This document shows, one piece after another, positions 29,232 through 56,859 of a stretch of 57,503 nucleotides of DNA. The number at the start of each line of letters is the position of its first letter. Position 1 is the stretch's first letter. The notes under the pieces were generated by a model. That model was not told the origin of the DNA and did no database searches. It was given only the letters and a program-made list of their open reading frames with translations. A program made the position numbers and the translations under genes. Origin of the DNA: Candidatus Poseidonia sp. (GTDB lineage Archaea; Thermoplasmatota; Poseidoniia; Poseidoniales; Poseidoniaceae); the NCBI GenBank assembly GCA_030741355.1, contig JASLVM010000007.1:1-57503 (forward strand), written 5' to 3'.

Positions 29232-30479
29232 TCACCCCTTGACTCCTCCAGCGGAAAGTCCCTCAATGAGGAACTTCTGGAAAATCAAGAACAGCAAAGC
29301 AACCGGTAGACTCACCAAGAGGCTGGCCGCTGCAAAATCACCCCACGCCTGACCGGTGGACGAAATCATGGACGCTAGACCGACGGGGAGGGTGTACATG
29401 TCGTTGGAGGTGTTGAACGTCAATGCGAGAAGGAATTCGTTCCAAGCCGCCAAGAAACTGAACAACGCCGTAACGGCCACCGCAGGAAGCGAGAGCGGCA
29501 GAACGACTTTGGTAAAGACCTGAAATTGAGTGCATCCATCGAGCAAGGCGGCTTCTTCCAATTCTCTTGGAACGGTATCAAAGAAACCCTTGAGCATCCA
29601 AACGCACAACGGAAGCGCCGTCACACAATAGGCCAAGATGAGTCCGAGATGGGAATTCAACAAGCCGAGCGTTTTCATGACGAGGAAATATGGGACGAGG
29701 ATAATGATGCCTGGAAACATCTGGACCAGCAAGAAGGCGAACATGGAAACGTCTCGCCCCGTGAATTTGTACCGACTGAAGGCGTAACCGGCAGGAACGG
29801 CCACAATCAGTCCCATCAGGGTCGTACCGACGCTGACGATGAGCGAATTGCGCATCCAAGTCCAAAACGCTTCACTTTCCAGCATGTTGGAAAAATGTTC
29901 ACCGGTGTAAGGGCCACCCAGAGAACCTCCCAAAGCATTCCCCGGTGAAAGTGCAATGTCAAGAATCCAAACGAGTGGCAACAAGGTCAAGGCCACGAAA
30001 TGAAGGAGGACAAGATGGGCACCGATGGAACGCCAGCGTCCGTCATGTTGTTGATTTCGTGCAAGACCGTACTCAATGGCTTCGAGCGACATTCGTCGCG
30101 TGGACCACGCAGACACCGGCCGACTGGACACCCATATGAGGGTCAAAGCACCTGGCCCAACCAGCCATCCTTGCATCCAGATATCAAAGCCGGTTGCCGG
30201 TGATGACAATAAACGCACGAGGCCGATGAGAAGCAAGGCACCACCGAGAACCAAGGCGATGTTTCGCCGTGATGGGTTGGCTTCCTCCGGCAGGAAATTC
30301 AGCAAGAGGCCGAGGACGACCACGCCAAGCACACCCAACATTGCGTTTGATTGAGATCCTCGCAAGAGGTCCACCGCCAAGAGCACGATGTTCACCACGA
30401 AACTCACCAACAACCACCGCTGAAGAGTGCTCACCTCTACGGGCGTGTACCATTGACGGACGGTGGATTCAGTGATCAT
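29232..30479 (-). CDS. malG: Maltodextrin-type ABC transporter permease (MalG-like) with extra N-terminal membrane domain
   Basis: 415 residues from the ATG at 30479, which overlaps the stop of the MalEF fusion (ATGA). The C-terminal 240 residues are a normal CUT1 permease, with FSRYKFTGRD and the EAA loop EEAALLDGCTQFQVFTKVVLPLS, ending FQKFLIEGLSAGGVKG. Before it lies an unusual N-terminal part (about 20-150) with several hydrophobic segments (for example VVNIVLLAVDLL, VLGVVVLGLLLNFLP, IALVLGGALLLIGLVRLL). These are not found in ordinary MalG (about 280-300 residues). The extra helices could stabilise the complex with the fused partner or be a lineage feature. A longer start at 30560 would reach into the MalEF coding region and is not favoured. 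Confidence 0.87.
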   Translation of the reverse strand: MITESTVRQWYTPVEVSTLQRWLLVSFVVNIVLLAVDLLRGSQSNAMLGVLGVVVLGLLLNFLPEEANPSRRNIALVLGGALLLIGLVRLLSSPATGFDIWMQGWLVGPGALTLIWVSSRPVSAWSTRRMSLEAIEYGLARNQQHDGRWRSIGAHLVLLHFVALTLLPLVWILDIALSPGNALGGSLGGPYTGEHFSNMLESEAFWTWMRNSLIVSVGTTLMGLIVAVPAGYAFSRYKFTGRDVSMFAFLLVQMFPGIIILVPYFLVMKTLGLLNSHLGLILAYCVTALPLCVWMLKGFFDTVPRELEEAALLDGCTQFQVFTKVVLPLSLPAVAVTALFSFLAAWNEFLLALTFNTSNDMYTLPVGLASMISSTGQAWGDFAAASLLVSLPVALLFLIFQKFLIEGLSAGGVKG

Positions 30480-33103
30480 GCGGCCGCCTCCGTTGCTTGT
30501 GTGCGCTTCATGTAGGTCCATGAGAAAGCGACCAACATCATGAAAATCACCACAGACCATGCGGCAGCGACACCGTAGGCGCCGTCTCTGAAAGCCACAT
30601 CGTAAACGTACGTGATGAGAATATCTGTTTGGCCAGGCTCACCGAAGTAAAGGTCGGGTCCACCATCGGTGAGCAAGTAAATGACGTTGAACATGTTGAA
30701 CGTCCAGATGAATCCCAACAAGGAGAGGGGAACGAGGGCGCTCTTCAAATTGGGGAGCGTCAAGTGTCTGAAGGTGTCCCATGCCCCCACGCCATCAAGT
30801 TTAGCGGCCTCGTACATCTCACGAGGAAGCGCCTGAAGAGCACCGCTCAGTGACATCATCATGAACGGAACACCAAGCCAAATATTGACGAAAATCACCA
30901 CGATTTGAGCACCGGTGGGTTCAGCGAGGAAATGAAGGTCAGTCCCTAAAACAGCGTTCACCAAACCCTCTGGCTGAAACATCCCCTTCCAAACGAGAAC
31001 AGAGATGTAGGATGGAATCGCCCATGGAAGAAGGAGAACCGTTCGATAAGCTGTTTTTCCACGAATGTTGGCGTATTGAAGGACCATGGCCAAAAACAGA
31101 CCAAGGCCAATATGGGCCGCGACGTTCACCACCGTCCAAATCAAGGTAAACAGGGTAACGCGCAGGAAGCCCGACGCCGTGAACACCTCGATGAAATTTG
31201 CAAGCCCGATGAAGGCCTGATCACCAAGTCGGGTGGCATCGGCGTCGGTAAAGGCAAGCCAAATGCCGTACAACACCGGATAAAAAGTGAGCATGGCGAG
31301 GGCAAACATCGCTGGAGCGATGTAGAAATGTGCAGATTTCCCGTGAAGCCGACCTGCCCGCACGTCCATCGCTCGACCATAACCAAGCAGCACCACGAGA
31401 GACAGGAAGATGGCCCCCAAAGCAAACAACACCGGCGAGGTGTCGCCTGCACGAGGAAGAACATCCCCCACGGTGGTGCTGAGACTGGCCTCAAAGACAA
31501 CGCTTGATTCGCCGCGAATCACCACTTCATGAAGGACATTTGGCACCATACCCGTCAGGTCACATGCGACCAAGGTGGCTCCATCTGGAAGCAATCTTTC
31601 TCCATTGACTTCGACCATTTCTTGGCCGTCAGCCGTGCAAGAGGCGTAATGGGGGAGGAATGACTCCGGCGAAGAGGTTTGAACCAGTCGGCTGTGAAGT
31701 TCACCGTCAACCAATACCGTGTAGTCAGAAGAACCGTCGGTCGTGAAATTTACCGATACGGTCCGATACCCAAGATTCGCTGGTGGGGCCTCGGCTCGTT
31801 GAAGACCGTTCACGATGGAAATCAATTCATCGTTGGCGCCAACGAGGGCGTCTTCAGCGGTGGCCGTTTCGGTGTAGACCTGTTCAAAGGCGGTCACAAG
31901 GGGGCCGTAAACCATGGCCATGGCCCGAGTGGTGGGGGCAGGCGTACCGACTTCGATTTGGTCCATGAAACCGGACAGGACCGGGTCGGCGTTGATTTCA
32001 GAGTCGTTGGAAAGGGAGACATGCGTAGGCAACGTGTAGGTTTCCAAAGCAAAGGATTTCTGGACATCGCTGCTAGAAAGGAAAAGAGCCAACTCCACGG
32101 CTGCCATTTTCTCCTGGCTTTGCTTGCTCACGGTCCAACCTTTGTAGGTAACCAGCGGCGCCACCCGTTCTCCGGTCTCTTCAATGGTCGGCAACATTGC
32201 CTGACCCACATCAAGGCGACTTGCTTCGTAGGTAGCCCAATTCCATGGTCCATCGACGATCATGGCGGCTTTGGAGCCGATAAACTGGTTTTTCATGCCC
32301 TCCGTTTGTGTACCGGTGGCCACCACACCGTGTTCAAGTTCCAAATCCAGTAACCAATCGAGGGCTTGAGCGGAACCGGTTGAGTTCAGTGAAGGATGGC
32401 CGGTCTCGTTGAACAGAGAACCGTTGTAGCCTGCTTGAAAACCAAACCACCAGTAAGCGGATTTGACAGGAAGCGCAAGCCCTTGAACGTCCTGATAGGT
32501 CAACGCCTCGGCAGCCTCGAGCAAATCATTCTGCGTCCACGATGCATCAGGATAATCCACGCCTCGTGTGTCAAAGAGGGCCTTGTTGTACACCAAGGAG
32601 AGGGCATCTTGACTGGCGGGGAGGCCGTACAATGCTTCCCCATAGCGCATGGCGTGCAACGCACGTGCGTCAAAATCAGCGCGCTGCACCGGTGTGAGGT
32701 GAGGTCGTAAATCCTCGAGAAGGGGGAACCCATCAACGCGAACCTCTCCAATTGCACCCAATTGATCGCTTGACAAACGCATGAGGTCAGGGGCTTCACC
32801 GCCTTGGGCAGCCGTCATGAACAGGTTGTCTGCATCGCCAAAGGGAACGAGGGCCACATCAACGGTGATGTTTGGATTCAATGCCTCAAAATCTTTGACG
32901 GATTGAAGAAAGACATTCTCTTCCTTACTCTCGGCAGCAAAGGTGTGCCAAACGGTCAACGTAATCTGTTCACCCTCAGCCTCCTCTCCTTGAGCGGTGT
33001 TCTCGCCACCTCCCAAACAGCCAGAGAGAAGCAGTGCCCCCACCATGAAGAGGACCAGGCAAACCCGCCGGGCCTTCAACGGCTGAGGAACGGCCACGGT
33101 CAT
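30476..33103 (-). CDS. Maltodextrin-binding lipoprotein fused to MalF-type permease
   Basis: 875 residues. The N-terminus has a lipoprotein signal ending LLLSGC, with Cys29 as the lipidated residue, and a Gly/Glu-rich linker. A family 1 extracellular solute-binding protein follows (about 45-425), with SQDALSLVYNKALFDTRG and the MalE-like block MIVDGPWNWATY. A beta-rich segment (about 455-545) leads to a hydrophobic helix (about 553-573). A complete MalF-type permease covers about 590-870, with the EAA loop YEAAKLDGVGAWDTFRHLTLPN. In standard CUT1 importers the binding protein and MalF are separate genes. Here one polypeptide carries both, with the binding protein outside and the permease C-terminal. 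It is the first gene of the operon MalEF-MalG-MalK-GH13. Substrate is inferred from the enzyme neighbours as maltodextrins. Confidence 0.9.
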   Translation of the reverse strand: MTVAVPQPLKARRVCLVLFMVGALLLSGCLGGGENTAQGEEAEGEQITLTVWHTFAAESKEENVFLQSVKDFEALNPNITVDVALVPFGDADNLFMTAAQGGEAPDLMRLSSDQLGAIGEVRVDGFPLLEDLRPHLTPVQRADFDARALHAMRYGEALYGLPASQDALSLVYNKALFDTRGVDYPDASWTQNDLLEAAEALTYQDVQGLALPVKSAYWWFGFQAGYNGSLFNETGHPSLNSTGSAQALDWLLDLELEHGVVATGTQTEGMKNQFIGSKAAMIVDGPWNWATYEASRLDVGQAMLPTIEETGERVAPLVTYKGWTVSKQSQEKMAAVELALFLSSSDVQKSFALETYTLPTHVSLSNDSEINADPVLSGFMDQIEVGTPAPTTRAMAMVYGPLVTAFEQVYTETATAEDALVGANDELISIVNGLQRAEAPPANLGYRTVSVNFTTDGSSDYTVLVDGELHSRLVQTSSPESFLPHYASCTADGQEMVEVNGERLLPDGATLVACDLTGMVPNVLHEVVIRGESSVVFEASLSTTVGDVLPRAGDTSPVLFALGAIFLSLVVLLGYGRAMDVRAGRLHGKSAHFYIAPAMFALAMLTFYPVLYGIWLAFTDADATRLGDQAFIGLANFIEVFTASGFLRVTLFTLIWTVVNVAAHIGLGLFLAMVLQYANIRGKTAYRTVLLLPWAIPSYISVLVWKGMFQPEGLVNAVLGTDLHFLAEPTGAQIVVIFVNIWLGVPFMMMSLSGALQALPREMYEAAKLDGVGAWDTFRHLTLPNLKSALVPLSLLGFIWTFNMFNVIYLLTDGGPDLYFGEPGQTDILITYVYDVAFRDGAYGVAAAWSVVIFMMLVAFSWTYMKRTQATEAAA

Positions 33104-33967: not shown

Positions 33968-34534
33968 TCAAGCCTTCTGGTCGTAGCTCAGGTCATCCCA
34001 AGTTCGGAGCAAAGCACCGTCTCCGTTGATAGGAGCGTAGCTCAGGGTGATCGTAGCGTCTTCAAGAGGCGTACCGTCTGGAGCATGGGTTCGCACAAAG
34101 ATCGTATCTCCGGAGTTGAAGGTCGAAACCGACCGAGTCTCCGATTCTGAGATTTGTTCCTTGGTCACCGAGTCCACGAAGGTCACGAAGGCGTCGCTGT
34201 TGGCAGGGTTGAACCCGTACACGCCGGCACTGTCAGCCAGGTTTACCGAGTACGTGTTGAGGGCACCCGTAGCGTTGGTGTAGAACACCTTCACTTCGAC
34301 CGCTTGAGTAGCAAGCGGGGTTTGGGATTGCTCAACCGTGATGCGCCAGTGGCCTTCGTCAGCATCAAAGCCGTTGATGTCTTCGATGTCGAAGGTTACA
34401 CGGGGCACACCCTTCACGTCGGTTTCAGCGAGGCTGGAAGCCCACACGTAGATGACACCGGACAGAACCACGGTGATAGCGACCATCAGGATGGTAGCGA
34501 TCACAGGGCTGACGGCAGCGTCGTCCTCAGCCAT
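33968..34534 (-). other. Type IV pilin module at the C-terminus of the giant protein (possible internal translation start)
   Basis: This in-frame segment begins MAEDDAAVSPVIATILMVA and would by itself be a normal 188-residue archaeal pilin precursor: a short acidic leader, a likely prepilin-peptidase site near Ala4423-Val4424, an H-domain helix, and a polar head. GGAG lies only 3 bases before its ATG, and there is no AT-rich promoter upstream, so separate expression is unsupported. The preceding helix ends in RR and would place the leader in the cytoplasm, the side where prepilin peptidase cleaves. Cleavage could therefore free the pilin from the giant protein. Confidence 0.7.
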
Positions 34535-37500
34535 CGACTCCACTTCTTCTTCGTCATCAGCACGGCGGCTGGCGAAGGAGAGCGCACTGACGAAGAGACC
34601 CGTGAGGGCCACAGCGACGATGCTTGGGGCGAACGATGGAACAGCGCTGGCACCGATGGTCTCCACAACATCTGGCAGGAACTGGTCCGTGGCCAGGAAG
34701 TTGCTGGCTGGTTGGTTGGCGTGATTACACACGTCAGCCGTAGCCAAGGAGGTCATGATGTTGTTACACCAGTTGCTGTCTTCGAGGAGCGGTCGGCGTT
34801 CCGACGTCTTCGTAGCGTTCTTACCGTACTGACCGGGCTTGGACCATGGGTCATCGCTCTGCACGTTGTTGATGATAGCGTAGTGCGATCCGGGCTCATC
34901 AGCCTGGAAGCGGTCTGCAGCGGTCACCGACATGTCGCAGGGGTTGGCCAAACAGGTCACAACGTCCATCTCGACCCACACATGGGTGGTGTCCTTGGTG
35001 ATGTAAACATCCTCGGTGTACTTGACGCTGGCACCGTAGTCAGGCACAGCGTAGTAGCGAGTCAACTCAACATCATCATGTCCATCCGTGTGGTAGGTGA
35101 TGGCCAGCATGTGGTCGTATCGGTAAGGTCCTTCGTCGCCACCGCCGTTGACAGCGATGGTGACCGGCACGTAGGTTCCGGTCATGACGTTGGTGACACC
35201 GTTGAAGCTGAAGCCAGCCTCGTCGTCGAAGAAGTAGTCTGGCACCTGCTCACGGACGTTCTCAACACGAACACCGATTTCCTTCGTAGCCACACCTTGC
35301 TGGTAGTCAGCAATGGCCATCACGCTTTGGTCGTAGTTTGGCACATACGTGTTGTACTCGCCTTGCGTGGTTGGAGCCGTTGGTGTGTCTCGGAGGACCA
35401 AGCGGATCTGACAGTACTCCGAACCGGACGGTCCAATCTGGTGGATACCGTTGTTGTTCAGGTAGTCAATCTCCCAGTCGTTGGCGTTGGTGGTTGCATC
35501 CTCAATGAGGTCGAACACGAGGTCATCACCGACGATGGTCGTGGTGAAGTAGTTCGTGTAGACACACTGGTCAGTGGATTCAACCGTCCAAGTCAAGTCG
35601 TCCAGGTCATGGTCGATGTCAGTCTTGATGGCCGACAGGTCGTAGGTCAAGTTCGCCACGTTCTCGTCATCTTCCATCAAGGAGATGGACCATGGGAGGG
35701 CGGGGATTGAACCGTTGTCAGCGACCATAACGGTGTCCGTCGAGCGGTTCCAATCCATGATGACTGGAGCGTCGTTGACTGGAGCAACCGAGAAGACCAC
35801 ATCAAAGGATGCAGCATCTTGGTTCTCTGCACCGTCGTCAGCGAGGCCGAGCGTGACCGTACACTTGCCACCCAACTCGTTGTTGGTGTTTTCAGTGATG
35901 GCCAGTTCGTTGTTCAGGATGTCGACGCTGAAGGCGGAACAGGCGTCCGATGTGCCCGTGTCAACAGCGCTGGCGGACCAGGTGTAGACTTGGCGGGCAG
36001 GGGACTGCTCGTTGGCCATGTCTCGGATGTACGATCGGGTAGCGTTCGACACATCGCCCAAGAACTTGGTGTGTGTACCAAATCCTTCTGGGAGGATGTT
36101 GTAGTTGCCGTCGTCTTCGGAGAAGATTGGCATACAGTCGCTGCGCTCGATGTTACAGATGACTGGAGCGTCGTTGATGTTGTTCACCGTGAAGGTGATG
36201 TTGTGGGAGTCGCTCAGACCGTTGCTGTCAGTGACCTCGAACGAGAACACCATGGTACCGAACTGGTCGGTCTCTGGCGTCAGCGTGACGTCTTGGCCGT
36301 TGAGGGCGCTGTGAAGGAGGTCGTTGTTGTTGAACGCAACCATCGTTCCTTCTGCCATGGTCCAAGTCAACGAGGACTCTTCGTCTTGCACATCGTCAGC
36401 CAAGTTGGTGAGGCTGAAGGTGAAGGCGCCTGAGTCTTCGTCTCGACTGAAGTCCACAAGACCGTCGGCCGTGTCCGTTCCATCGGTGTCGATAACTGGA
36501 CATGCACGCTTGATGTCAATGGTGGCTTGGACGTTGGTCGTGTCGCCGGTTCCAGCCACGTAGTTGTCATCAAAGACGACGTTGGTGGCCATGGAGATGT
36601 CCTCAACAGTTGCCCAGTCGTAGGCACAGGCTGCTGGCGTCTTGATCATCAGGTCGTAGTTCTTCTGACCGGTGGCCGTGGTGCTGCCCTTGTAGGACTG
36701 GTAGACCAAGACCTCGGAGGTCAAGGTGCCGTCAGCGAGATCGCCGTGGGTCAACTCAACGGTCATGAACTTGGAAAGGTCCTGCAGCGTAGCAGAGCTG
36801 TCCAAGGTCTGAGTTGGGTGAACCACACTGATGTCAGCCGTGGTTTCGCCTTGCACGATGGCCACGATGTCAATCTCGTCTGGCATGCCGCCGATGCGAC
36901 TCCATGGGACGCCGAACTCAGCAAGCGAGGTGGAGAAGTCCACATCGACGTTGGCCGTGCTCAGAGAGGATGGACTCCATCCGAGGAAACCGTAGCTGTA
37001 GAGGTCGTAGGAACCTTCGCTGTCAGCCCACAACACGTAGTTGGCGCTGAACGGTAGGTCGTGTGCACCACCGAGACCGTTGTAGCCGACATCGGAACCA
37101 CCGCTACCGGTGTTGAGGTAAATCAACACGTCCGAGTTGGACAGGTCGGTGTTGGTCATTCCGAAGTAGATACCATCGCCTTCGATGTAGGTGGCGAGGA
37201 AGTCATCCGTACCGTCGCCGCTCATCACACCAGGCATAGCGTAGCCGGATGGGTTGAGGGCGTTGCCGCCGTTCCAGTCTTCATCCGAGCCGTCGACCGT
37301 CATGGCCTCGGGCTGGAAGGAGGTTGAAACATAGGAAGCACGCTCGTCATCAGTGGACATCAAGAGAAGAGCAACCTCGCTGGATGGAGCCGTACCCAAG
37401 TGGGTGGACTCAATGCTCATGAGGTTGGCTTCGTCGATGACAGCCGAGGTAGCAACGGCAATCTTGCTGGAGTCCAGCGTGTTGCCGATCGAGGTGATGT

Positions 37501-40500
37501 GGGCGTTGTTGCCAGCGTTCACTTGCGTGGTGGCGTCGGCCCAGGTCATGTTCTCAACGCTACCGGTAGCATCGACCACAGACAGAGCGGTGGTGGCGTC
37601 AACAACACCACCGTCCCAGCGGAACGGAGTGTCTTCGACGTACATACCGATGAGGCCTGAAGCGTCCATTGGGTAGACCCACACATCTGGGCTGCTGACC
37701 ACATGGAGACCGGTACCGGTGGCACCGCCGTCAACATGAGCGTCAATGGCCACAACGTAGGTGTCTTCTGCGTAAACAGCGTAATCGCTGCCTGCGAGTG
37801 AAGCACCGCCAATCATGAAGAGATCACCGTTTTCCTTGCTAACACCAGTGGCGAAGCCGCTGATGTCGGTGCCGTTGAGCGTCAACACCGTGTTGGTGTC
37901 GTCGCCGAGGATACCGACCGTGGACGAGAGGTCATCACCGGTAATGGTGGAACCAACGTCGCTGAAGTCGCAGTCTTCGATGATAATGGCGTTGTCGCCG
38001 AGGTTGATGGTGTTGGTGCCGGACTGGATGGCCACCGAGTCACACGAGGTGGCCGTGATACCAACAGCGTTCGGAGAGGTTCGACCAGAGGACAGGCCAA
38101 TGGTGTTGCCACTGACATCGGGTCCGAGGTAAGAACCACTGCCGCCGGAGGATTCAACGACGCTGATCGTTGCACCACCGTCGCCCCACGAGTCAGAAAC
38201 CACAAGGCTGTAGCTTCCAGCATCCGAATAGGTTCGGAGAGGGCTGTACTCTGCGTTGCTGTTGAACGAGTAGGTTGGCCAGGTGTCCTTGGTGCCGTCT
38301 GGCTTGGTGACTTCGATGCTGATTTCGTAGCCCCAACTGTCGGTACCGAGGTTCAAGGCGGCGCTCTTGCCGGCGGCAAGGGTCCACGTACAACTGGTGG
38401 TGCGGCGGTAATCGCTGCTGCCAATTGAACAGAGTGAATTGGTCGGTGATGGTGGAGCTTCCATGCTGTCGAGATACATACCACCGTCGGCGTCCGTGAG
38501 GACGTTGTTGGTGATGTTTCCACTGCCTCGGAAGACGTAGACACCCGTTGAGGTGTCATCACTGATACCGCCAATGTCGTTGCCGTCAATGGTGAAGTCA
38601 GCCACACGGTTGAGGTAGAAGGCGTCATCGCCGCCCACGACCGTGTTGTCCTGAATCAAAACATCCTGAGTCTTTCCGTTGTAGATGGCCACTGCGTGTC
38701 CATTGGATGGGTTGAACTCGTTGTCAGTGATGGTAGCACCCTGAACTTCGTTCGAGTTGTAGAACCAAACATCGGCGATTTCACCACCGTCTTCGAAGAC
38801 GTTGTTGGTGATGGTCACGTTGTCTGCTCCGATCTCACTGGTGCTGTGGCTGTAGTAGTATGGAGAACGTTCGTTCATGATACCAACACCACAGTCAACG
38901 AAGGTGTTGCTGTCAACGAAGTTGCCGTCGCCACCGTTCATAATGACACAGATGTCGTTGTAGTTGATGGCGTTGTTGAGTTCGGTGTAGCCCTTGAAGT
39001 GGACGAACGTGTTGTTTGTCAACTTGAAGAAGTCCAACTCGTACTGGTTGTAGTAGCCGTAGCCCATAGCACCAATGACGTTCGAAACACCGGAGATGGT
39101 GGTGTTGTCCATGTCAAGGTTGAGCGAGTAGTAGCGGTAGCCAATGGTGAAACCTTGAGGCACGCCAGCACTCGAAACAGCAACTGCGGTGACACTTGCA
39201 TCGTGCATGTAGAGTGAGGACTCACCCTGGTAGTATGGATACATACGGTTGTTGCCTTCGAAGTCGTAGGAAGCGGTGGAAATCCAGGTGCTTCCGTTCC
39301 AGTTGTGCTTGCCTTGTGAGAGGTACATGAATGGAGCGTCCATCATGACGGTTTCACCAGCAAGGTCGTTTCCACTGTGGCTTCGGAGGTATCCGTACTC
39401 AACCAAACCGTTGCTGAACGTACGGCTGCCCGAGGAGGACAGGCCGCTTGCACAGCGATCTTGCTTGATGTAAGCTGTTGAGGTGTAGCAGATACGGGCG
39501 GTAAACTCGTCTTCGAGGTACACGGTATCGCTGTTTCCAGCGGTGTCCGTGAGACTCATGGTATGGAAGACGTATCGGAAGTCCGCTGCGTTGTTACCAC
39601 TGTTGGTCCACGAATATGCAATGGTTGCGGAGGCAACTGCTTCGTAGCCGTTCAAGTTCTTGGTACAGATGCTGGAACAAGAGCCACTGTCAACGGTCTG
39701 GGTGACGAAGGTGATGTCGTTGGCAACACCGTTAGTGTCGGTGTCGGCCATGCCGGTCACCGTACCATCGGCGTCCTTCAAAATCACCGTTGTTCCGTCC
39801 ACATTCTCTGAAACACCAGAGACGTTAGCCTGCAAGGTGATGTCAACTTGACGTAGGCGAGAGAACAGACCTGTTCCTGTGACTTCCACCGTATTGGTGT
39901 CAATTGAACCTTCGATGAATTCCATCTCGGAGGAACCGCTGATCACCACATCCTTGGTGTTGGACATGACCACATCGGTGAGGATGAAATCACCGCTACC
40001 GGCGCTTTCAATACCCACGGCGTTGTTTTCGATGTTCATGTTCGCCAACTCTACGGTTGCAGAGGTGCGTGAAGCATACTTGAACGCAGGTCCAGCGGAA
40101 CCCGTGAAGGTTCCCGTTAGGTCGCCACCAAGGTCGGTCTGGTAGTAGATACCAGCAACGAGTTGGTTTTCCAAATCAATGTTCTCAAGGTCAACTTGAC
40201 CCGATGCTGTGTTGGAAACAAGCACACCGTAGTTGCCGTCTGAAACGTTCAAACGGTTAGCGGAAGCAGAGGCTTGACCAATAACTTCCATACCCGCCTG
40301 AGAGGGTCCGACAACATCGATGTCTTCGAAGTGTCCAGCAGCGAAAGCGCCGCCGATCTCAATACCGGTGTCGGCTCCCGTGATGGTACCTTCCTTGAAC
40401 AGAGGCGTACCTGATTCACGGACGTAGTCTCCAAGGTCGCTGGCATCGTTGCCGGAGCGAGCGACGAAGTCGTATCGGTCCTGGTAGTTGTCAGCACCAC

Positions 40501-43500
40501 GGTGGAGGACGTCCATCCAAAGGTAGACCTTCGAGATGTTTCCGCCGTTAGCCGCAGCAGCAGAGATGTCAACAACCGGGAAGGTCATTCGAGCGCTGTC
40601 GCCGCTGTTCATGTAGTAGGTGTAGGCGTAGTCTTGACAGATACCGTAGTTGTTGGGGTATCCACCTGAAGCGTAGCTTGGTGGGTTTCCAACGTTTCCG
40701 GGCTGACCTGGTCCAGTTGAGGGCTGTCCGTTGTTTCCTTCAGGTGGTGTGTAAACACCGTTGAAGTAGAAGGACGGAGAGTAAGCGCCCCAGTACTTGT
40801 ATGGGTAGCGGGACTGGAAATTGCCGGTTGGACTGTTATCCGTAGCCTCCCAATCGAAACCGAACTCGTCCGGTGATTCGTAGTAGTCAGGGAAGCTGAC
40901 TGCTTGGTTGAGCCAGTAGCGGTAGAAGTAGTAGAAGTAGCCGTCGTAGCTAGCGTAGTTAGGACCGTAATTGTAGCCGTAGTAGTTGCAATGCCAGGAG
41001 GGTGCACCACCGGTTCCACCGTTGTAGGTGTGCGTTCCTGCGGTGACCGCTGGGTCGTTGGAACCGTATGGATAGTATCCTTCTTGGCCGCTATCGGTGA
41101 TGTTCCATTCGTTGCCAGCATCGTCCTCGAACATGATGTTCATTCGGTCGGTGATGAAGTAGTACTTGCTCGTAGCATAGTTGTAGCTTGGGTGAGCGTT
41201 TCCACCGGCGTAGACTGAGTTCGCACCAACCTGTAGGTAGTTGCCCGTGCCCAAGTAGGTGGACAGGTCAATCTTGTAGGTGGTCCAACCAGCGGCTGCG
41301 CCAGAGAGGGACGTACTTCGGTAGATGGTCGGCAACGACATGCCACCGTAGGCGTTGATACCAACGGTGTTGCCGGTTGACGTGAAGCCATCAACTTGAG
41401 GAGCGCCGTTGTAGCTTTGGATACCAATTGCAGCGTTCTTGACAATGATGTCAGAGAGCGTAGCACCGGAGTTTTCGATCCAAATCGCCGTACCGGTTTG
41501 GCCGGTGTTGATGATGCTGGACGAATCAATGCTTGCAGAGCCGCCTTGGATCTTGACCGTCGACATTTCGTCAGCAGATGCAGACGAACCGAAGATGGTA
41601 GCTGCGTCCATCATGTTCAGCGTAGCACCGTTGCCGATGTAGAGCGCTGATTCAGTGGTCGTGTCCCAAGCGATGTCTCGCATGTTGGCGTTGTCAAGTG
41701 TCAGCGTACCGCCGTTCTGGATGTCCATGTGCAGTCCGTAAGTTGACGAAACAGCACGGATGGACGCAGGGCTTCCGGAGGTACCGTCGTTGTTAGCGGT
41801 GAGGAAACCGGTGTCCTTGATGGTGATGACCGGAGATGACGTAGCCGTGCTGAGCACACGGAGCGAACCACCTTGCAACTCAAATCCACAGGTGTCGAGC
41901 GTGATGTCTGCCGCGACCGTAATGGAGGTGTCGTCAAACGTAAAGGTGCTCGTAGCAGCGTTGTAGTTAGCGCTGAGGTTGCTGTACGCTGGGAGGTTGA
42001 TCAACTTGTAACAATCCAAGGTAGGATCGTTGAACACGATTGGAGCGGGCTCCAAGAGCATGTCAAGGTGCGTCCCCCAGGTGTATCCGTTGGTTGGGTA
42101 CCAGTCACTGGCCAAGGTCGCATCAGGGTAGTCATCGGGGTAGGTCTCGTTTTGACCGGCCGTACCGAAGGCACGGATAACGTGGTCTTCGTAGGTCGTA
42201 CCGTCGCTGTCTCCCACAACAACCCAAACGCTGGTGTTTCCGTTAGCGTCCGTGGTGTGGCTTCCGATTTCAAACAATTCGTTCATGCTGCTGTCAAGGA
42301 GTGAGGCCGTGATAGTATGGTCGGCCTTGTACACCTTGACTTGAGTTCCACCTTGGTTAGCAAGACGGTAGACCGATGCGTTTGCAAGGCCACCGAAGTA
42401 CACCATTGACGGGTTCGAGCTGGACGATGAAACATCGTAAGCACAGTTGCTGGTATCGCCACTGGAGTCCGAACAGTCGTTGCCGTTGAGGGCGACGTCG
42501 ATCAGAACCACATTGGTTCCGGAGCGAGCCTTTGCAAGTTCGGTTGTACCGCTGCTAACGCTCGTACTGGAGACGGTGGATTCACCCAGCGTGATGTGGG
42601 AGTTTCGTCCGTCGATGACGTGAGCAGAACTGGCACCGTGAGCAATGGTTGCATCGCTGATGGAAATCTGGTTCTTTGCCGAGGAACTGGAACAGCTGCT
42701 CTTGAACGATTCAAAGGACGGGCTGTCAATAACCATCGACCAGCCACAGCCAGAGACCGTAAAGGCGTCAATGTCCCAGTTGTCCATGGACAACGTTTCA
42801 GTGACAATGGATGAACCACTCATCGACACATCTTCTGCAGTGATGTCGGTAAAGGTACCAGGGTGCATACGCTGCATGGTGATGTCACCAGCGGTGACCG
42901 TGTCAAACACGGCGCTGGAACTCGATGGACCGTTTCCGGTTTGTGACCATCCACCGGGGATGAGCCACAAGTCAGCACTGCCGAAGTCAACATCCGTCAT
43001 TTGGATGCTGCCCATGGCATTGATACCAGAGTTGGCGTAGCTGTCAACATCGACGTTGTTCAGGACAACGTTGGAGTTGGTTCCGAACATCGAGTCAATG
43101 GCCACACCGGTTTGAGCCGATGGGTTGGTGACCGAGACGTTGGAAACCGTGACATGTTGCAAGTCAACATCGATGAAGTTCACGTACGAGTTCTCGACCG
43201 TCAAGTTCTCTGCGTGGAGAGCACCTGCAGTGGAACCGGGGTAGTTCACAATGGTACCGCCCCATGTTTCACCGTCGGTGTTACAGTTCTTGATGGTCCC
43301 TTCCTTGAGTGTCGCAATGGAGTTTTCAGGGAAGTTGAAACAAGCTTCGTCGACACCGTCGATTGAGAAGTCCTGCATGGTCACCACTGTACCTTGGCCG
43401 CTACCGTGCGTGAACACAGCACCAACGTTGGTGAAGGTGACATCGCTCATGGTGTAGTTGCCCGTGTTACAGTCAGCGGTTGCACTTCCACAAGATGGAC

Positions 43501-46500
43501 CGGATCCATCGTGTCGGCTACCAGAGCGGAACACGGCATCGTCGGTGTTGTTGAAGTTCACGTGGCTGAATTGATGTCGGTCATCTGTACCACTTGCGGT
43601 CGTACAGTCGTCGGTGAAGGCCATACCTGTCCAGTCGCCACCGTTCATGCCGGTGATGTTGATTGGATGGGTGGCGTTTCCGAGGGCCGTCATCTTGGTG
43701 CACGCACCGTCAAAGGAGATTCCCTTGCCTGCAGCAATTTCGATTTGAACACCAGGCTTGATGGTCAAGTCGGAAGAGACGACGAGGTAATCGTTCGAGG
43801 GGTTGATGCGAATTGGGCTGTCGGTCATGTCCCACACTGGGTCGGACGTGATGTCAGCCGTGACATCGGTTCCCTTGCCTTCGTAAGGCATCACGCGGTA
43901 GTAGACGGAACAATCCTGACTGGAGGTCGTGTAGCAGTAGTACTGGTTGTAGCCGGTCCAGAACGGAGCGATGGTACCTGGGCGTGATAGCGAGCTGCCA
44001 GAGTATGGCAGAGCAGGCTGGTGGTACGTCCAGAGGTTGCGCTCAACGTTGGTGTTACCGTTGCTGATGAAGTACATCGAGCCTTGGCGGCTGAGTTGGA
44101 TACGGTCGTTGGAGTCGTCGCCGTCGTAGGTTGTTCCGAAGTAATCGAACTCAAATCCTGCAGGGATGTCAATGTTCGCGTTGCAGCGAGCCTTGTAGGT
44201 GTTCCAGTAGTAGGAAGAGATGCAGTAGTAGAGGTAAGGTCGGCCGTTGGAGGTGCCCGTCATCGCTGTGTCAGCGTTGGTGACTTCCACCAATCCCTTG
44301 TCAAAGGATTCCCATGCGTGTGAAGTGGAACTCGTAGAGATACGGAAGTTCGACGTCGTAGGGATGTGCCCTGGGTTGGTGTTGAAGCTGGTGGAAGAGG
44401 AGTGAGCGATGCTCGCACCCTTCTGACGGGTTTGGTCCATGTAGCCGATCGACCAAGAGTTGTAGGTGGTACGGCAGTTGCTGTCGTACTTGTATTCAAT
44501 CTCGTTGGTCACGTCGTAGAACAAGGCTTGGACCGTACAGAGTTGTCCGTAGGTGTAGTAAGCCATGTCTCGCCATTCAACGACGAACACCTTGTTCGGG
44601 TCGCCTCGCTCAAAGGAGTACGTCGAAGAGGTGTTGGTGTTGATTCCAGCAGAGACCGTTGAAACGTCTTGAGACTTGAAGTAATACTCGACCGTGTCGT
44701 TGACTTCCAAGTCTTCGATGTCGGCACTCCACGTACAAGCAGCCAGTGCACATTGTGCACGGGTCTTACCGGCTTCTTGGGACATAGCCGTCGATGTCCA
44801 GCTACCTGCCGTACCGCCATCAGGCGTGATACGGTGATAGAGGGTCGGGCCAGTACCAGCGGCACTGCTCACGTTCAAACCGGATGCAGGGTCGCCACCG
44901 TCAATGATGGTGACCGAGACCGTACGCTGCTTGGCGTGCGAGTCTTGCATGGAGCTGTGAATCATCTCAGGCTTGAAGGTGTCAGGCGTTGGCGCCACGT
45001 TTCCGACCTTGTAGGTGATGTCGCCCGTGCTGGCTTGACGGCCGTAGTAGCCGGAGCCGAGAGCGAAACCACTCCATCGGTAGGAGGAAGTGGAACCGTA
45101 GATCATGTAGTAAGCCGAGGTACAGCGGTCCGTGCTGATGGACCGGTAGAAGTAGTACCATCCGTTGGTGGTGACACACAATCGGTTGGCGGTCGTGGTG
45201 GTCTGCGTTGCGTTGAACGAGAACGTACCGAAGCTACCGGTGATGTCGCCGGGGATGGCGAACTTGTAGGCTTGCGAGTATCCATAGGAGACACTGGCCG
45301 TAGCGCTGTTGCCACCGGTGAGTGGCGTGTCGATACCGGTTTGGGTGTCGACACCAACGGTAGCCCATGCGTTCTTGGTGCTGTCGTACACGAAGATGAG
45401 GTTCATGCTTGGACCGTTTTTGGCACTGATCCACAAGTAGCCATCACCGTTGTTGTTCCAAAGGTTCTGGTTGAACTTGTTCGAACCGCTGTTCATGCCG
45501 TAATAACCGTAGGCAGGTGCCGTGTTACCACGAGCCAACCAGTTTCCGTAGAAGGTGCTGGTTCCGGTGTAGAAACAGGACGAAGAGCCAGTACCACAGC
45601 TTGAGGTGTCGAATTCAAAGAAGTATTCGTCAGAGTGGCTGTAGTAGGTCATCTGTCGGTCAAAGAACCCTTGTGGGTTGAAGTAGCTACCAGCGTGGAC
45701 ATCGGTGGTCAACACGGTCATCTTCTTGTGAGAAGTTGGTGCGTTGGCTGGGTCAACGATGTCGACTTGGTAAGGCGTAGGCGTGGTTTGCGTACCGGTC
45801 AAGGCAGGCTCGTAACCCACGTTTGCGCCGTTGCTACCCTGGTTCAGGTCTTGGTATTTCCAGTAGTACTGGAAGTCGTCACCGTAGCTCAAAGCGTCCA
45901 CTCGAGCCTTGAATCGGCATTCGGTGGTCGTGCTCGAGCAGGTTCCGATAGAGACGAGTTCACCTGCGTCGAATTGGTTGTTGGAACCCAATCCGTACGT
46001 CGTGCTGCTCCACGTGGTACCACCATCGGTGGTGTAGTGGAGTTGAGGTGCACCGGAGGTGGTGGTGTCAATTCCAGACATGTCTGTTAGCGTGATGAAG
46101 AGGGTTCGCTCACCTTCAATGTAGGAATCTAGTCCGGTGTAAGGGACGAAGTCCGAGGTTGGGGCGTCGGCATCCGTACCACCAGAGTAGGTGATGAGGA
46201 GGTGAGAGTTACGGCTTCCAGAGGCAATGCCGTAGGTGCTGAAGTAAGCGCTTCCACCGGTGTAGTACTCGCCGATACCAACGTTGCCATTGTTGCTCAT
46301 GGCGTTGGTGATGATGGAGACACCACCGGAGGTTGCGGCACAAGCTGTAGCGGAGTTACAGAGGTTCACGGTCTTCCAACCGGTACCGCTGCTGCTCACC
46401 GTGGCTGCGGAGGGCGAGAGGCCAATGGAAGCCTTGAGGCTTCGACCTGCCGTTCCACCGTAGTTGGTGGTCATGTAACTGTTGCTGATGGAGGAACCGG

Positions 46501-47782
46501 AACAAGAGCCGGAACCCATCGAGTAGGAATAGCGGGGTGCTAGACCACAGCTTTCGAGAACCTTCACTTGGAAGGTGCGGGTGGAACCGTAGGCGTAGTT
46601 CATGTATTTCTTCCACTCGATCTTGTCGACCGTAGCACCGCTTGGGAGGGAGCTGGAAGAGGTGAACGTGTACTTGTGCCATGGGATGTAGTAGTACGAA
46701 CCATAGTAGCGGTAGTGGCGTCGGTAGGTGTTTGTGTAGCAGTTAGCGTAGTAGATGTAACAGTAGCCACCGCTGGAGGAGTTCACACGGATTGACGGGT
46801 CAATCACGATTGGGTAAACGCGGTCCTCGTCAAGAAGCCAGTCGGACTCAACCACGGTGATGAGGAGAATCTCTGGGCCGTGGACTTGAACGAAGAACGT
46901 TCCCATGTAAGGCTCGTCGGCGCCGGCTTCCATGATAACAGGAGCAGGGATTTCGACAAGCAATTCACCGGTTTCGATGTCGCGGATTTGAAGGTCTTCT
47001 TGCGTCTTGAAGAGGTCTTCACCGAGCATCGTTTCTCCGGAGTAGAGGGCGTAGCCAGCAGGCATTCGCAGACCTTCACTGAGTCCGAAGTATTCGGCAG
47101 GCTCTGGAAGGACAGGGACCTCACGGAGGATGAGGTTCTGCTTGACCTCAGTGCTCTCGACGGCGTAGTCGAGGTCATAGCCTTCAGCGAGCGGGTAGCG
47201 GATGACGTTGCCGCCAACTTCCACGCCGTTCGGGCTAGGAGCAGTGATGAAAGGTTCAGGAGCTGAACCTGATGCATCGAGGGTCACGAGCATGGGGTTG
47301 ATACCGGAGATCACCGGCTCAACAAACTCGTTTGCCTGGACCGAGATACCGCTTGCGACTTCAGGGGCAAAGTACGTCGTGAAGGTGTTCTCCGTGACTC
47401 CCCAGCCCTCTGGGTAGGCCTGAATGTTCAGGTCAATGTCTTCCCAAGTTCCGTCAGCCGACATGTAGTGCACAGGTTCACTGCCCACGACTTGCGTGAT
47501 GGTGCCGTCCTCATTGAGGAAGGCCTTGGTCTTGGCGTCTCGCATCCCTTGTAGTTCAAGCGATGGGTCGTATTCGTAATCTGCTTCAGCGATTTTTTCG
47601 GGGAGAGCAAAGGAATCCTCTGCTCCAGTGGTGGCTGCTTCCACAGACTCCACAGTTGCCGCTGCCTCGTCGTTGTTCACGTAGCCGCTCATTGGCATGA
47701 GCACCATCAATGCGCACAACAACAGTGCAATCCCGATACCGCCGAAGACGGTCTTTTTCTTGTTATTCTTGTTTCCCAACAT
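33968..47782 (-). CDS. Giant (4604 aa) surface protein: DNRLRE-like, Ig-like, beta-helix, DOMON-like and cadherin-like regions, ending in a membrane anchor fused to a type IV pilin module
   Basis: A signal segment (about 12-32) is followed by an N-terminal domain (about 50-330) with FLNEDGTITQVVG and a Tyr-rich DNRLRE-like domain (about 331-545). Ig-like units follow (about 545-690 and 935-1060). A parallel beta-helix-like territory covers about 1310-2190 and 2390-3430, rich in short Asn/Gly/Thr turns. It is interrupted by a Tyr/Gly/Asn/Pro-rich stretch (about 2220-2390) and a PPC-like unit (about 3120-3215). A DOMON-like domain (about 3490-3660) resembles that of the amylopullulanase, and cadherin-like units with NDAPVI follow (about 3750-4050). 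A helix (about 4380-4403) ending in ASRRADDEEE is followed at Met4417 by EDDAAVSPVIATILMVAITV, an archaeal Pilin_N segment, and a pilin-like head of about 150 residues. It is probably an adhesin or cell-surface structural protein. The frame is unbroken throughout. Confidence 0.85.
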   Translation of the reverse strand: MLGNKNNKKKTVFGGIGIALLLCALMVLMPMSGYVNNDEAAATVESVEAATTGAEDSFALPEKIAEADYEYDPSLELQGMRDAKTKAFLNEDGTITQVVGSEPVHYMSADGTWEDIDLNIQAYPEGWGVTENTFTTYFAPEVASGISVQANEFVEPVISGINPMLVTLDASGSAPEPFITAPSPNGVEVGGNVIRYPLAEGYDLDYAVESTEVKQNLILREVPVLPEPAEYFGLSEGLRMPAGYALYSGETMLGEDLFKTQEDLQIRDIETGELLVEIPAPVIMEAGADEPYMGTFFVQVHGPEILLITVVESDWLLDEDRVYPIVIDPSIRVNSSSGGYCYIYYANCYTNTYRRHYRYYGSYYYIPWHKYTFTSSSSLPSGATVDKIEWKKYMNYAYGSTRTFQVKVLESCGLAPRYSYSMGSGSCSGSSISNSYMTTNYGGTAGRSLKASIGLSPSAATVSSSGTGWKTVNLCNSATACAATSGGVSIITNAMSNNGNVGIGEYYTGGSAYFSTYGIASGSRNSHLLITYSGGTDADAPTSDFVPYTGLDSYIEGERTLFITLTDMSGIDTTTSGAPQLHYTTDGGTTWSSTTYGLGSNNQFDAGELVSIGTCSSTTTECRFKARVDALSYGDDFQYYWKYQDLNQGSNGANVGYEPALTGTQTTPTPYQVDIVDPANAPTSHKKMTVLTTDVHAGSYFNPQGFFDRQMTYYSHSDEYFFEFDTSSCGTGSSSCFYTGTSTFYGNWLARGNTAPAYGYYGMNSGSNKFNQNLWNNNGDGYLWISAKNGPSMNLIFVYDSTKNAWATVGVDTQTGIDTPLTGGNSATASVSYGYSQAYKFAIPGDITGSFGTFSFNATQTTTTANRLCVTTNGWYYFYRSISTDRCTSAYYMIYGSTSSYRWSGFALGSGYYGRQASTGDITYKVGNVAPTPDTFKPEMIHSSMQDSHAKQRTVSVTIIDGGDPASGLNVSSAAGTGPTLYHRITPDGGTAGSWTSTAMSQEAGKTRAQCALAACTWSADIEDLEVNDTVEYYFKSQDVSTVSAGINTNTSSTYSFERGDPNKVFVVEWRDMAYYTYGQLCTVQALFYDVTNEIEYKYDSNCRTTYNSWSIGYMDQTRQKGASIAHSSSTSFNTNPGHIPTTSNFRISTSSTSHAWESFDKGLVEVTNADTAMTGTSNGRPYLYYCISSYYWNTYKARCNANIDIPAGFEFDYFGTTYDGDDSNDRIQLSRQGSMYFISNGNTNVERNLWTYHQPALPYSGSSLSRPGTIAPFWTGYNQYYCYTTSSQDCSVYYRVMPYEGKGTDVTADITSDPVWDMTDSPIRINPSNDYLVVSSDLTIKPGVQIEIAAGKGISFDGACTKMTALGNATHPINITGMNGGDWTGMAFTDDCTTASGTDDRHQFSHVNFNNTDDAVFRSGSRHDGSGPSCGSATADCNTGNYTMSDVTFTNVGAVFTHGSGQGTVVTMQDFSIDGVDEACFNFPENSIATLKEGTIKNCNTDGETWGGTIVNYPGSTAGALHAENLTVENSYVNFIDVDLQHVTVSNVSVTNPSAQTGVAIDSMFGTNSNVVLNNVDVDSYANSGINAMGSIQMTDVDFGSADLWLIPGGWSQTGNGPSSSSAVFDTVTAGDITMQRMHPGTFTDITAEDVSMSGSSIVTETLSMDNWDIDAFTVSGCGWSMVIDSPSFESFKSSCSSSSAKNQISISDATIAHGASSAHVIDGRNSHITLGESTVSSTSVSSGTTELAKARSGTNVVLIDVALNGNDCSDSSGDTSNCAYDVSSSSSNPSMVYFGGLANASVYRLANQGGTQVKVYKADHTITASLLDSSMNELFEIGSHTTDANGNTSVWVVVGDSDGTTYEDHVIRAFGTAGQNETYPDDYPDATLASDWYPTNGYTWGTHLDMLLEPAPIVFNDPTLDCYKLINLPAYSNLSANYNAATSTFTFDDTSITVAADITLDTCGFELQGGSLRVLSTATSSPVITIKDTGFLTANNDGTSGSPASIRAVSSTYGLHMDIQNGGTLTLDNANMRDIAWDTTTESALYIGNGATLNMMDAATIFGSSASADEMSTVKIQGGSASIDSSSIINTGQTGTAIWIENSGATLSDIIVKNAAIGIQSYNGAPQVDGFTSTGNTVGINAYGGMSLPTIYRSTSLSGAAAGWTTYKIDLSTYLGTGNYLQVGANSVYAGGNAHPSYNYATSKYYFITDRMNIMFEDDAGNEWNITDSGQEGYYPYGSNDPAVTAGTHTYNGGTGGAPSWHCNYYGYNYGPNYASYDGYFYYFYRYWLNQAVSFPDYYESPDEFGFDWEATDNSPTGNFQSRYPYKYWGAYSPSFYFNGVYTPPEGNNGQPSTGPGQPGNVGNPPSYASGGYPNNYGICQDYAYTYYMNSGDSARMTFPVVDISAAAANGGNISKVYLWMDVLHRGADNYQDRYDFVARSGNDASDLGDYVRESGTPLFKEGTITGADTGIEIGGAFAAGHFEDIDVVGPSQAGMEVIGQASASANRLNVSDGNYGVLVSNTASGQVDLENIDLENQLVAGIYYQTDLGGDLTGTFTGSAGPAFKYASRTSATVELANMNIENNAVGIESAGSGDFILTDVVMSNTKDVVISGSSEMEFIEGSIDTNTVEVTGTGLFSRLRQVDITLQANVSGVSENVDGTTVILKDADGTVTGMADTDTNGVANDITFVTQTVDSGSCSSICTKNLNGYEAVASATIAYSWTNSGNNAADFRYVFHTMSLTDTAGNSDTVYLEDEFTARICYTSTAYIKQDRCASGLSSSGSRTFSNGLVEYGYLRSHSGNDLAGETVMMDAPFMYLSQGKHNWNGSTWISTASYDFEGNNRMYPYYQGESSLYMHDASVTAVAVSSAGVPQGFTIGYRYYSLNLDMDNTTISGVSNVIGAMGYGYYNQYELDFFKLTNNTFVHFKGYTELNNAINYNDICVIMNGGDGNFVDSNTFVDCGVGIMNERSPYYYSHSTSEIGADNVTITNNVFEDGGEIADVWFYNSNEVQGATITDNEFNPSNGHAVAIYNGKTQDVLIQDNTVVGGDDAFYLNRVADFTIDGNDIGGISDDTSTGVYVFRGSGNITNNVLTDADGGMYLDSMEAPPSPTNSLCSIGSSDYRRTTSCTWTLAAGKSAALNLGTDSWGYEISIEVTKPDGTKDTWPTYSFNSNAEYSPLRTYSDAGSYSLVVSDSWGDGGATISVVESSGGSGSYLGPDVSGNTIGLSSGRTSPNAVGITATSCDSVAIQSGTNTINLGDNAIIIEDCDFSDVGSTITGDDLSSTVGILGDDTNTVLTLNGTDISGFATGVSKENGDLFMIGGASLAGSDYAVYAEDTYVVAIDAHVDGGATGTGLHVVSSPDVWVYPMDASGLIGMYVEDTPFRWDGGVVDATTALSVVDATGSVENMTWADATTQVNAGNNAHITSIGNTLDSSKIAVATSAVIDEANLMSIESTHLGTAPSSEVALLLMSTDDERASYVSTSFQPEAMTVDGSDEDWNGGNALNPSGYAMPGVMSGDGTDDFLATYIEGDGIYFGMTNTDLSNSDVLIYLNTGSGGSDVGYNGLGGAHDLPFSANYVLWADSEGSYDLYSYGFLGWSPSSLSTANVDVDFSTSLAEFGVPWSRIGGMPDEIDIVAIVQGETTADISVVHPTQTLDSSATLQDLSKFMTVELTHGDLADGTLTSEVLVYQSYKGSTTATGQKNYDLMIKTPAACAYDWATVEDISMATNVVFDDNYVAGTGDTTNVQATIDIKRACPVIDTDGTDTADGLVDFSRDEDSGAFTFSLTNLADDVQDEESSLTWTMAEGTMVAFNNNDLLHSALNGQDVTLTPETDQFGTMVFSFEVTDSNGLSDSHNITFTVNNINDAPVICNIERSDCMPIFSEDDGNYNILPEGFGTHTKFLGDVSNATRSYIRDMANEQSPARQVYTWSASAVDTGTSDACSAFSVDILNNELAITENTNNELGGKCTVTLGLADDGAENQDAASFDVVFSVAPVNDAPVIMDWNRSTDTVMVADNGSIPALPWSISLMEDDENVANLTYDLSAIKTDIDHDLDDLTWTVESTDQCVYTNYFTTTIVGDDLVFDLIEDATTNANDWEIDYLNNNGIHQIGPSGSEYCQIRLVLRDTPTAPTTQGEYNTYVPNYDQSVMAIADYQQGVATKEIGVRVENVREQVPDYFFDDEAGFSFNGVTNVMTGTYVPVTIAVNGGGDEGPYRYDHMLAITYHTDGHDDVELTRYYAVPDYGASVKYTEDVYITKDTTHVWVEMDVVTCLANPCDMSVTAADRFQADEPGSHYAIINNVQSDDPWSKPGQYGKNATKTSERRPLLEDSNWCNNIMTSLATADVCNHANQPASNFLATDQFLPDVVETIGASAVPSFAPSIVAVALTGLFVSALSFASRRADDEEEVESMAEDDAAVSPVIATILMVAITVVLSGVIYVWASSLAETDVKGVPRVTFDIEDINGFDADEGHWRITVEQSQTPLATQAVEVKVFYTNATGALNTYSVNLADSAGVYGFNPANSDAFVTFVDSVTKEQISESETRSVSTFNSGDTIFVRTHAPDGTPLEDATITLSYAPINGDGALLRTWDDLSYDQKA

Positions 47783-51100: not shown

Positions 51101-51323
51101 CCGAGAACGTGGTCTCTTCGCCCACCTGCAAGGTGTTGCGGCAACCCTGGTCGTTGCACGTGGTTTCTTTCGGTGTTGTGATGGCAACCACCGTTGCGTC
51201 CGCTCCAGAGCGTGCGCCGGTTTCTTCGATTACCACTTGTTCTTCAAGCTCGTGAAAGTCAATGCCAGCGAACAAACTCGTCAACATCAACATCCCGAGG
51301 ATTACAGGTGTCATATTCTTCAT
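48171..51323 (-). CDS. Secreted, membrane-anchored protein with CARDB-like and FN3-like domains
   Basis: 1050 residues. A signal peptide (about 1-20) is followed by a CARDB-like domain (about 40-175) with ETTFSAFIQNDGDADIDEL and the usual late motif DTANNAELVYV. A second domain of similar type (about 180-310), a Cys-containing beta-rich middle part, and a third CARDB-like unit (about 430-560) with LRPSNNDMTMVVDVVN come next. A cadherin/Ig-like unit (about 565-660) and two FN3-like units (about 815-1000) lead to a C-terminal helix (about 1018-1037) with an acidic tail GDGEDGEGKDWDY. No catalytic motif is seen. It is probably a structural or ligand-binding component of the cell surface. It has its own TATA box and terminator, shares strand and promoter style with the giant gene downstream, and is probably highly expressed. 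Confidence 0.75.
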   Translation of the reverse strand: MKNMTPVILGMLMLTSLFAGIDFHELEEQVVIEETGARSGADATVVAITTPKETTCNDQGCRNTLQVGEETTFSAFIQNDGDADIDELSYSVTVYLTDSSGAVGGVAKDATGNDLIWENANVMCDDITVCLYDGSVDPLTAGAFLGGGKSTLQLDGGGGDITWTPTRGEYMVEISVESPTDIDTANNAELVYVLVEDWYDVEVDLLWVADTDGDGMAEELEASSFDASATEGDIDFKLKVTADGSDTFDPRDVEVLLTLSGQASGQVGGNALTINTLVAGTTTTVDIYANESDPNATQTGSRAVLSYQTTWEISGAITPGTQSNAAWQLEAELVEYTMYGQYEECVESSEATEGNENVTTWNNLCEVAQSGDDRPKTDSDMISGSTDVYDDIRISRMGVYQGYNSDCSGVASTFTQQGEDGDLNVGCSLVYADVEHRGSKMTKEYGWNMTYTISLDGVETASGVLTECLQGTDMPYAWSPLGIMGGSVCTFVTMEPGEYTIDFSLHMNNKSSTDTDPVPWDGGTDLRPSNNDMTMVVDVVNNLPVITSFELNTEGDIVVGQEAPLVFAVSAFDVDDPSGDGLNFAYSYPGGEIGGCTGTQAEGATVCTTPVFPDFIGNSPVTVVVTDAHNGEVSQEIDMFVWNSAVATATSDAGVELQYSLDYNGQSEFTITSFSDADATSYDAVQLEGFTGTYGAVAALDYVPSSTYTASDVLEQSISVIVAKDVEATSLWYIDGSGKWILLSDASTDVDASTEMFTYDVPSNSPVVPAGKMVLMGGELAQASIPDASVSGFSAEATRGGAIAMTWDITGTLLNSDSIVVSICVAEADCANAFEATVADEDRTYTYSGSQTTHGETYHLEVAVCNEQGCSTPGIASVVADKQVDGDVAASNLAVAAQDGQWVITWEVTGDSSDVAMWHVCWSTEDFTVGEMPTPCPDAAMGASATTVSIDMPSIRTGQEYFFTAVPMDALGNMDAAASMNSIIDTRVSDSSNTNDGNGTIGDTGDDTSSSVPTWTWGLIGGVVIVAFIAGAFILSRGDGEDGEGKDWDY

Positions 51324-56808: not shown

Positions 56809-56859
56809 GGTTTCACCAAAGGGAATTGTATTCATAAATCCCTGCCCGAAAGGAGCCTC

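Follow-up and report, generated by a model that had tools for sequence, protein, structure and literature searches.

A type IV pilin fused in frame behind the membrane anchor of a giant surface protein in Marine Group II archaea

The window, a stretch of 57,503 nucleotides from Candidatus Poseidonia sp., contains a minus-strand frame of 4604 aa (33968-47782) that runs without interruption in the open reading frame (ORF) reading and encodes a giant surface protein whose C-terminal membrane anchor is followed, within the same chain, by a predicted archaeal type IV pilin. This fusion is a real and conserved gene structure. We infer that an adhesin and a minor pilin may be made 1:1 in one chain, which a prepilin peptidase would cut before the pilin enters a pilus, a reading that we hold to be evenly poised between right and wrong. 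In order of translation, the gene comprises:

47684..47782, minus strand: N-terminal secretion signal, residues 1-33 (MLGNKNNKKKTVFGGIGIALLLCALMVLMPMSG), predicted from the sequence and a hydropathy peak at residue 11
34643..47683, minus strand: very large outside part, residues 34-4380, with a Big_9/tandem-95-like stretch at about 3782-3877 (sub-threshold profile matches and full-length orthology)
34562..34642, minus strand: C-terminal membrane anchor, residues 4381-4407 (VPSFAPSIVAVALTGLFVSALSFASRR; hydropathy, conserved motif and AF2 helix)
34514..34561, minus strand: acidic linker, residues 4408-4423 (ADDEEEVESMAEDDAA), ending at the predicted prepilin-peptidase site between Ala4423 and Val4424 (114 distinct sequences)
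34427..34513, minus strand: pilin N-terminal helix, residues 4424-4452 (VSPVIATILMVAITVVLSGVIYVWASSLA), near-invariant (PF07790 and TIGR02537 above their cut-offs)
33971..34426, minus strand: pilin head, residues 4453-4604, a predicted beta sandwich (AF2 model and fold matches)
33968..33970, minus strand: stop codon of the fused gene (ORF reading)

The pilin thus forms only the last 4% of the 4,604-residue chain, its signal being preceded by 4,423 residues that include another membrane helix, with a linker of 16 residues between the anchor and the pilin. The outside part is mostly blank to Pfam, apart from a sub-threshold Big_9 match at 3782-3865, and gave a weak NCBIfam tandem-95 match. In the anchor, the V.SF.P motif, the hydrophobic stretch and the Arg are conserved among relatives, and the AF2 model shows a helix there at low confidence. 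The preliminary description, which had read the pilin as fused in frame to the C-terminus of a giant surface protein, is borne out by the frame and the conserved junction. It had placed Met4417 and Val4424 correctly; the anchor that it described likewise exists, but with limits of about 4381-4407, so that the ASRR end falls at 4407 and not at 4403. The VPSFAP segment resembles the VPxxxP motif of archaeosortase (CTERM) substrates, although none of the CTERM models of NCBIfam gave a match at E 10, in a search in which short models are easily missed.

Several neighbouring genes of the window also encode surface or membrane proteins. The gene next to that of the giant (48171-51323, minus strand) encodes an anchored surface protein of 1050 aa that Pfam does not recognize, and a similar protein of 1028 aa occupies the same place beside the giant gene of genome G035. 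Further upstream, at 51518-56949 (minus strand), lies a 1529-aa FtsX/MacB-type permease beside a 281-aa ATPase-like gene. At 30476-33103 (minus strand), an SBP_bac_1 solute-binding protein and a BPD_transp_1 ABC permease are joined in one 875-aa chain, and the genes around it encode an anchored alpha-amylase, a GH57/glucodextranase-like surface protein and an ATPase-like protein, a neighbourhood that looks like a surface alpha-glucan uptake cluster.

By profile comparison, the tail is a genuine archaeal type IV pilin, in agreement with its earlier identification as a Pilin_N protein. Two curated libraries recognized it above their cut-offs: Pilin_N (PF07790) at residues 4423-4472 (32.9 bits with the full protein and 38.7 bits with the tail alone; cut-off 25.2) and TIGR02537, the archaellin/type IV pilin N-terminus, at 4423-4451 (33.7 bits; cut-off 20). 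Among solved structures, its best matches are type IV pilins of archaea (8fj5, 2e-11; 9myg, 3e-7; 8gi2, 2e-6). The AF2 model of the tail, which is of moderate quality (mean pLDDT 70, head about 80, pTM 0.54) and has low confidence in the anchor and linker, shows a pair of helices and a beta head. Of its eight fold matches at E<=0.001, six were to archaella or an archaeal filament, though the TM-scores over the whole chain were low. The fused helix and the consensus for the standalone 'type-A' pilin of the same genomes, presumed here to be their major pilin, disagree at only 2 of 29 positions. A profile comparison of the two families aligned the helix and the start of the head (82 columns, 3e-24) and gave no alignment of the remainder of the heads. 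Among the 114 distinct DNA sequences of the region, the fused helix was nearly unchanged despite codon variation.

The last 230 residues matched 168 of the 171 genomes of the family (Candidatus Poseidoniaceae, 11 genera), named matches being Candidatus Poseidonia, Candidatus Poseidoniaceae and Poseidoniales metagenome genomes, i.e. Marine Group II. In about 140 of the family matches, anchor and pilin were covered by one open frame, and many of these ORFs were 4,500-5,500 aa in length. All 114 distinct DNA sequences of linker and helix were in frame and free of stops and frameshifts, and the cut site always lay 17-22 residues beyond the first Arg that follows the anchor. That two genes had been joined by an assembly or sequencing artefact is a suspicion raised by the fragmented metagenome assembly from which the window comes, but the same junction in many independent genome assemblies, including the single-contig 2.06 Mb genome G035, makes it negligibly probable. 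We therefore rejected an assembly or frame error, and the hidden stop or frameshift contemplated in the preliminary description does not exist in these sequences. A single TGA seen in some genomes of genus g3, considered as a stop between anchor and pilin, was the normal end of the gene. Nor were anchor and pilin found as separate genes in any relative: the matches in very short ORFs (e.g. G090, G039 and G054) sit at contig ends, which explains them, and no separately encoded copy of the fused pilin was present among the genomes searched with the tail, a search that would reveal one.

Production of the pilin also, or only, from a Met within the linker appears very improbable. An in-frame ATG is present in 91 of the 114 linkers, and an ATG, GTG or TTG in 99, but the other 15 contain no start codon at all, which led us to reject a universally conserved internal start. 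The upstream frame, moreover, is intact in every sequence, whereas with independent production of the two parts one would expect breaks.

In the sister family f2, the fusion was found in genera g12, g14, g19 and g20 and was absent from the other f2 genera. Orthology across both families extends over the full length, the protein of f2 genome G223 being about 34% identical in an alignment that covers residues 8-4596. Searches of eight genomes of family f3, which belongs to the same class and is probably Marine Group III, and of another 27 genomes from the phylum yielded no fusion. When the stalk of the giant (query without anchor and pilin) was searched, full-strength matches were obtained only in the five fusion-genus controls, while nothing stronger than weak, partial matches to domains appeared in 48 other f2 genomes and eight f3 genomes. 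Since the stalk is absent where pilins are absent, it is the whole giant protein, and not the pilin tail alone, that goes with pili. One f3 genome encodes a large, otherwise unrelated protein with a V.SF anchor and a stop directly after RRKEEE (L276:5600-10000, minus strand), possibly the unfused state of the anchor. Frames of 5,100-5,500 residues with the same tail occur in G062:C28, G059:C135, G104:C9, G049:C30 and G052:C35, and G104 carries a second, shorter copy of the giant. The giant frame of G004 (genus g2) is shorter (2,493 residues, with the same tail), and this genome has eight Pilin_N matches, some of them in frames of 500-830 aa.

The distribution of pilus-building genes followed that of the fusion. 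T2SSF platform proteins were detected in 26/26 tested genomes of fusion genera (2-5 copies each) and in none of the 38 genomes of g13, g15, g16, g18 and g21, while g17 genomes carry one at most, which is of archaellum size and occurs in most of them. Pilin_N proteins showed the same split between genera, the exception being one weak, sub-cut-off match in g17. The genome of the window itself has three motor loci:

C22: T2SSE ATPase with two small split T2SSF proteins
C61: second T2SSE with two T2SSF proteins
C58: archaellum-type set with a KaiC-like ATPase

The in-frame conservation of the join and its restriction to genomes with pilus-building genes suggest that a single chain contains both a putative adhesin and a pilus subunit, which are probably cut apart. 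In an RpoB tree (built without G124, a wrong-frame row), the co-occurrence of pili and giant is explicable by as few as one change, the deciding branch being poorly supported. The link between fusion and pili is a correlation of low independence that may reflect a single evolutionary change.

Pfam Peptidase_A24 (PF01478) was detected in none of 70 genomes at E<=0.001, despite being positive in 12 of 14 controls. The conclusion that these genomes have no prepilin peptidase was nevertheless rejected, as a more permissive search surfaced a divergent family of 330-340 aa in which D-x-K-x-R and HGGADAK motifs, the two catalytic-Asp motifs, are invariant. Two orthologues pass Arc_PepC_II, and the copy of the window's own genome (G000:C116:4540-5535), a multi-helix membrane protein with both catalytic-Asp motifs, reaches 25.1 bits, below the cut-off of 29.9. 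The model of this copy (pLDDT 87) had FlaK (3s0x, E 7.7e-4) as its sole significant fold match. On the strength of motifs and modelled fold, this protein and its orthologues (L111-L140) are predicted to be a divergent FlaK-like prepilin peptidase family, missed by Peptidase_A24 in this order. It was present in 24 of 26 fusion-genus genomes, own genome included (both misses in g19), in 6/6 g17 genomes and in 0/38 of the other non-fusion f2 genomes tested. The pilus genes that the preliminary description had looked to elsewhere in the genome are hence there: ATPases, platform proteins, another Pilin_N pilin and a prepilin peptidase.

The predicted cut site has the G, A or S expected at -1 before a hydrophobic helix, this residue being Ala in all 114 fused sites. 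Position -3 is Asp or Glu in 112/114 and -4 is Asp in 106/114, and -2 takes 11 different residues across the 114 sequences (Ala in this window). An invariant -1 beside a varying -2 is the pattern expected if a protease reads -1. A charged residue at -2 is described as critical for archaeal prepilin processing (PMC4371748), and was found in 11/107 fused sites vs 15/26 standalone pilins, sequences that are related, so that the Fisher p-value of this comparison is not a true probability. The charge has been lost mainly in fused sites of family f1, most f2 fused sites retaining Glu or Arg. In f2 genera g12, g19 and g20, position -2 of the type-A pilin is occupied by Gln, so the local enzyme may not require a charge there. 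In the substrates described in the literature consulted, the site is located in an N-terminal signal peptide and not behind another membrane segment. Cleavage by the peptidase at an internal site flanked by two membrane segments, freeing adhesin and pilin from one polyprotein, is offered tentatively, at slightly short of an even chance.

The main rival of cutting is an uncut tether, in which the pilin would stay joined to the giant as pilus base, cap or docking subunit, or would bind the platform protein; we regard it as rather unlikely, though worth serious consideration. A helix that is almost the same as in the presumed major pilin should be compatible with the same partners, the charge at -2 is mostly lost at fused sites and the fusion is unbroken in every relative, all of which speak for a tether. 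The invariant Ala at -1 beside a freely varying -2 is, however, hard to explain without cutting, pilin processing precedes assembly in described pili (PMC4371748), and an uncut chain could probably sit only at the end of a filament. Sequence by itself would not decide between the two, as Ala at -1 favours cutting and the lost charge at -2 opposes it. A decidedly less probable reading is a membrane-held pilin domain with no role in a pilus, either as a two-helix hairpin anchor or with its helix binding a membrane regulator, as has been proposed for the H-domain of the PilA pilins of Haloferax volcanii. This conserved H-domain affects swimming motility from within the membrane (PMC4371748), and the genomes studied here carry an archaellum-type locus too. 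Against this, a plain anchor needs neither an invariant pilin motif nor an invariant Ala at -1, and g17, with the peptidase, mostly one archaellum-size platform protein and no clear Pilin_N, lacks the giant.

In the cut model, the N-terminal signal would export about 4,350 residues and the first C-terminal helix would anchor the chain, with Arg-Arg at the inner face. A short acidic cytoplasmic loop would follow, from which the pilin helix would return outward to leave the head outside, a topology proposed in the preliminary description and consistent with the sequence. The FlaK-like prepilin peptidase of the genome would most likely cut between Ala4423 and Val4424. The products would be a conventional surface protein, anchored and with an acidic tail, that is probably an adhesin (a role assumed from size and location alone), and an ordinary mature pilin beginning VSPVI, a minor pilin, both made 1:1 and at the same spot. 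The released pilin would join or start a pilus built mainly from the standalone type-A pilin, the adhesin remaining anchored. In support of cutting, the tail of the giant after the cut would match that of nearby anchored surface proteins (helix, Arg and acidic end), and the peptidase, pilus platform proteins and T2SSE ATPases are all encoded in the own genome.

Archaeal type IV adhesion pilins with a Pilin_N domain (e.g. H. volcanii PilA and Natrinema PilA2, 8gi2) share with the fused pilin the VSPVI helix, a small residue at -1, a predicted beta head and a peptidase with motors, but here the pilin stands at the end of the chain behind another membrane helix and -2 is mostly uncharged. Elsewhere in the phylum, many strong Pilin_N matches lie in ORFs of 900-2650 aa (L171-L188, other Thermoplasmatota). 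These proteins too have a Pilin_N helix and a huge outside part within a single chain, but with the helix near the N-terminus and the big head after it, whereas here the order is reversed and a separate anchor intervenes. Twenty such loci were examined, several of which gave no clear motif; for those that could be placed, the pilin was N-terminal and the same arrangement was rejected. The bindosome of S. solfataricus and other non-pilin PibD substrates are likewise far larger than a pilin and have a pilin-type processing site, but in an N-terminal signal peptide (PMC4371748) and not internally. Ordinary anchored surface proteins of the same archaea resemble the giant in signal, large outside part, C-terminal helix, Arg and usually an acidic tail, yet end after that tail with no pilin behind.

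Bacterial PilY1-type tip adhesins work with minor pilins. The likeness of these large adhesins to the fusion is one of function, and adhesin and minor pilins are separate genes there. No published description of an anchor-pilin fusion was found in a search of open-access papers, and papers on Marine Group II (PMC6461757, PMC6336850 and PMC9723583) and an archaeal pilus census (PMC4858521), when searched for it by terms, made no mention of one. With subscription journals largely outside its scope, this search is weak evidence of absence, consistent with the earlier statement that no described system of this type is known.

Marine Group II are described as exceeding all other planktonic archaea of surface seawater in abundance, and none of them is in culture; their adhesion has been proposed to occur via the archaellum operon (PMC6461757). 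The synthesis of a giant surface protein and a pilin in one chain offers a concrete, testable candidate system for the particle attachment of this group. If the internal site is cut, the range of prepilin peptidases would be wider than described, with a new substrate topology for this protease family. The fusion would then represent a polyprotein strategy for pilus components and a new coupling of a surface adhesin to pilus assembly.
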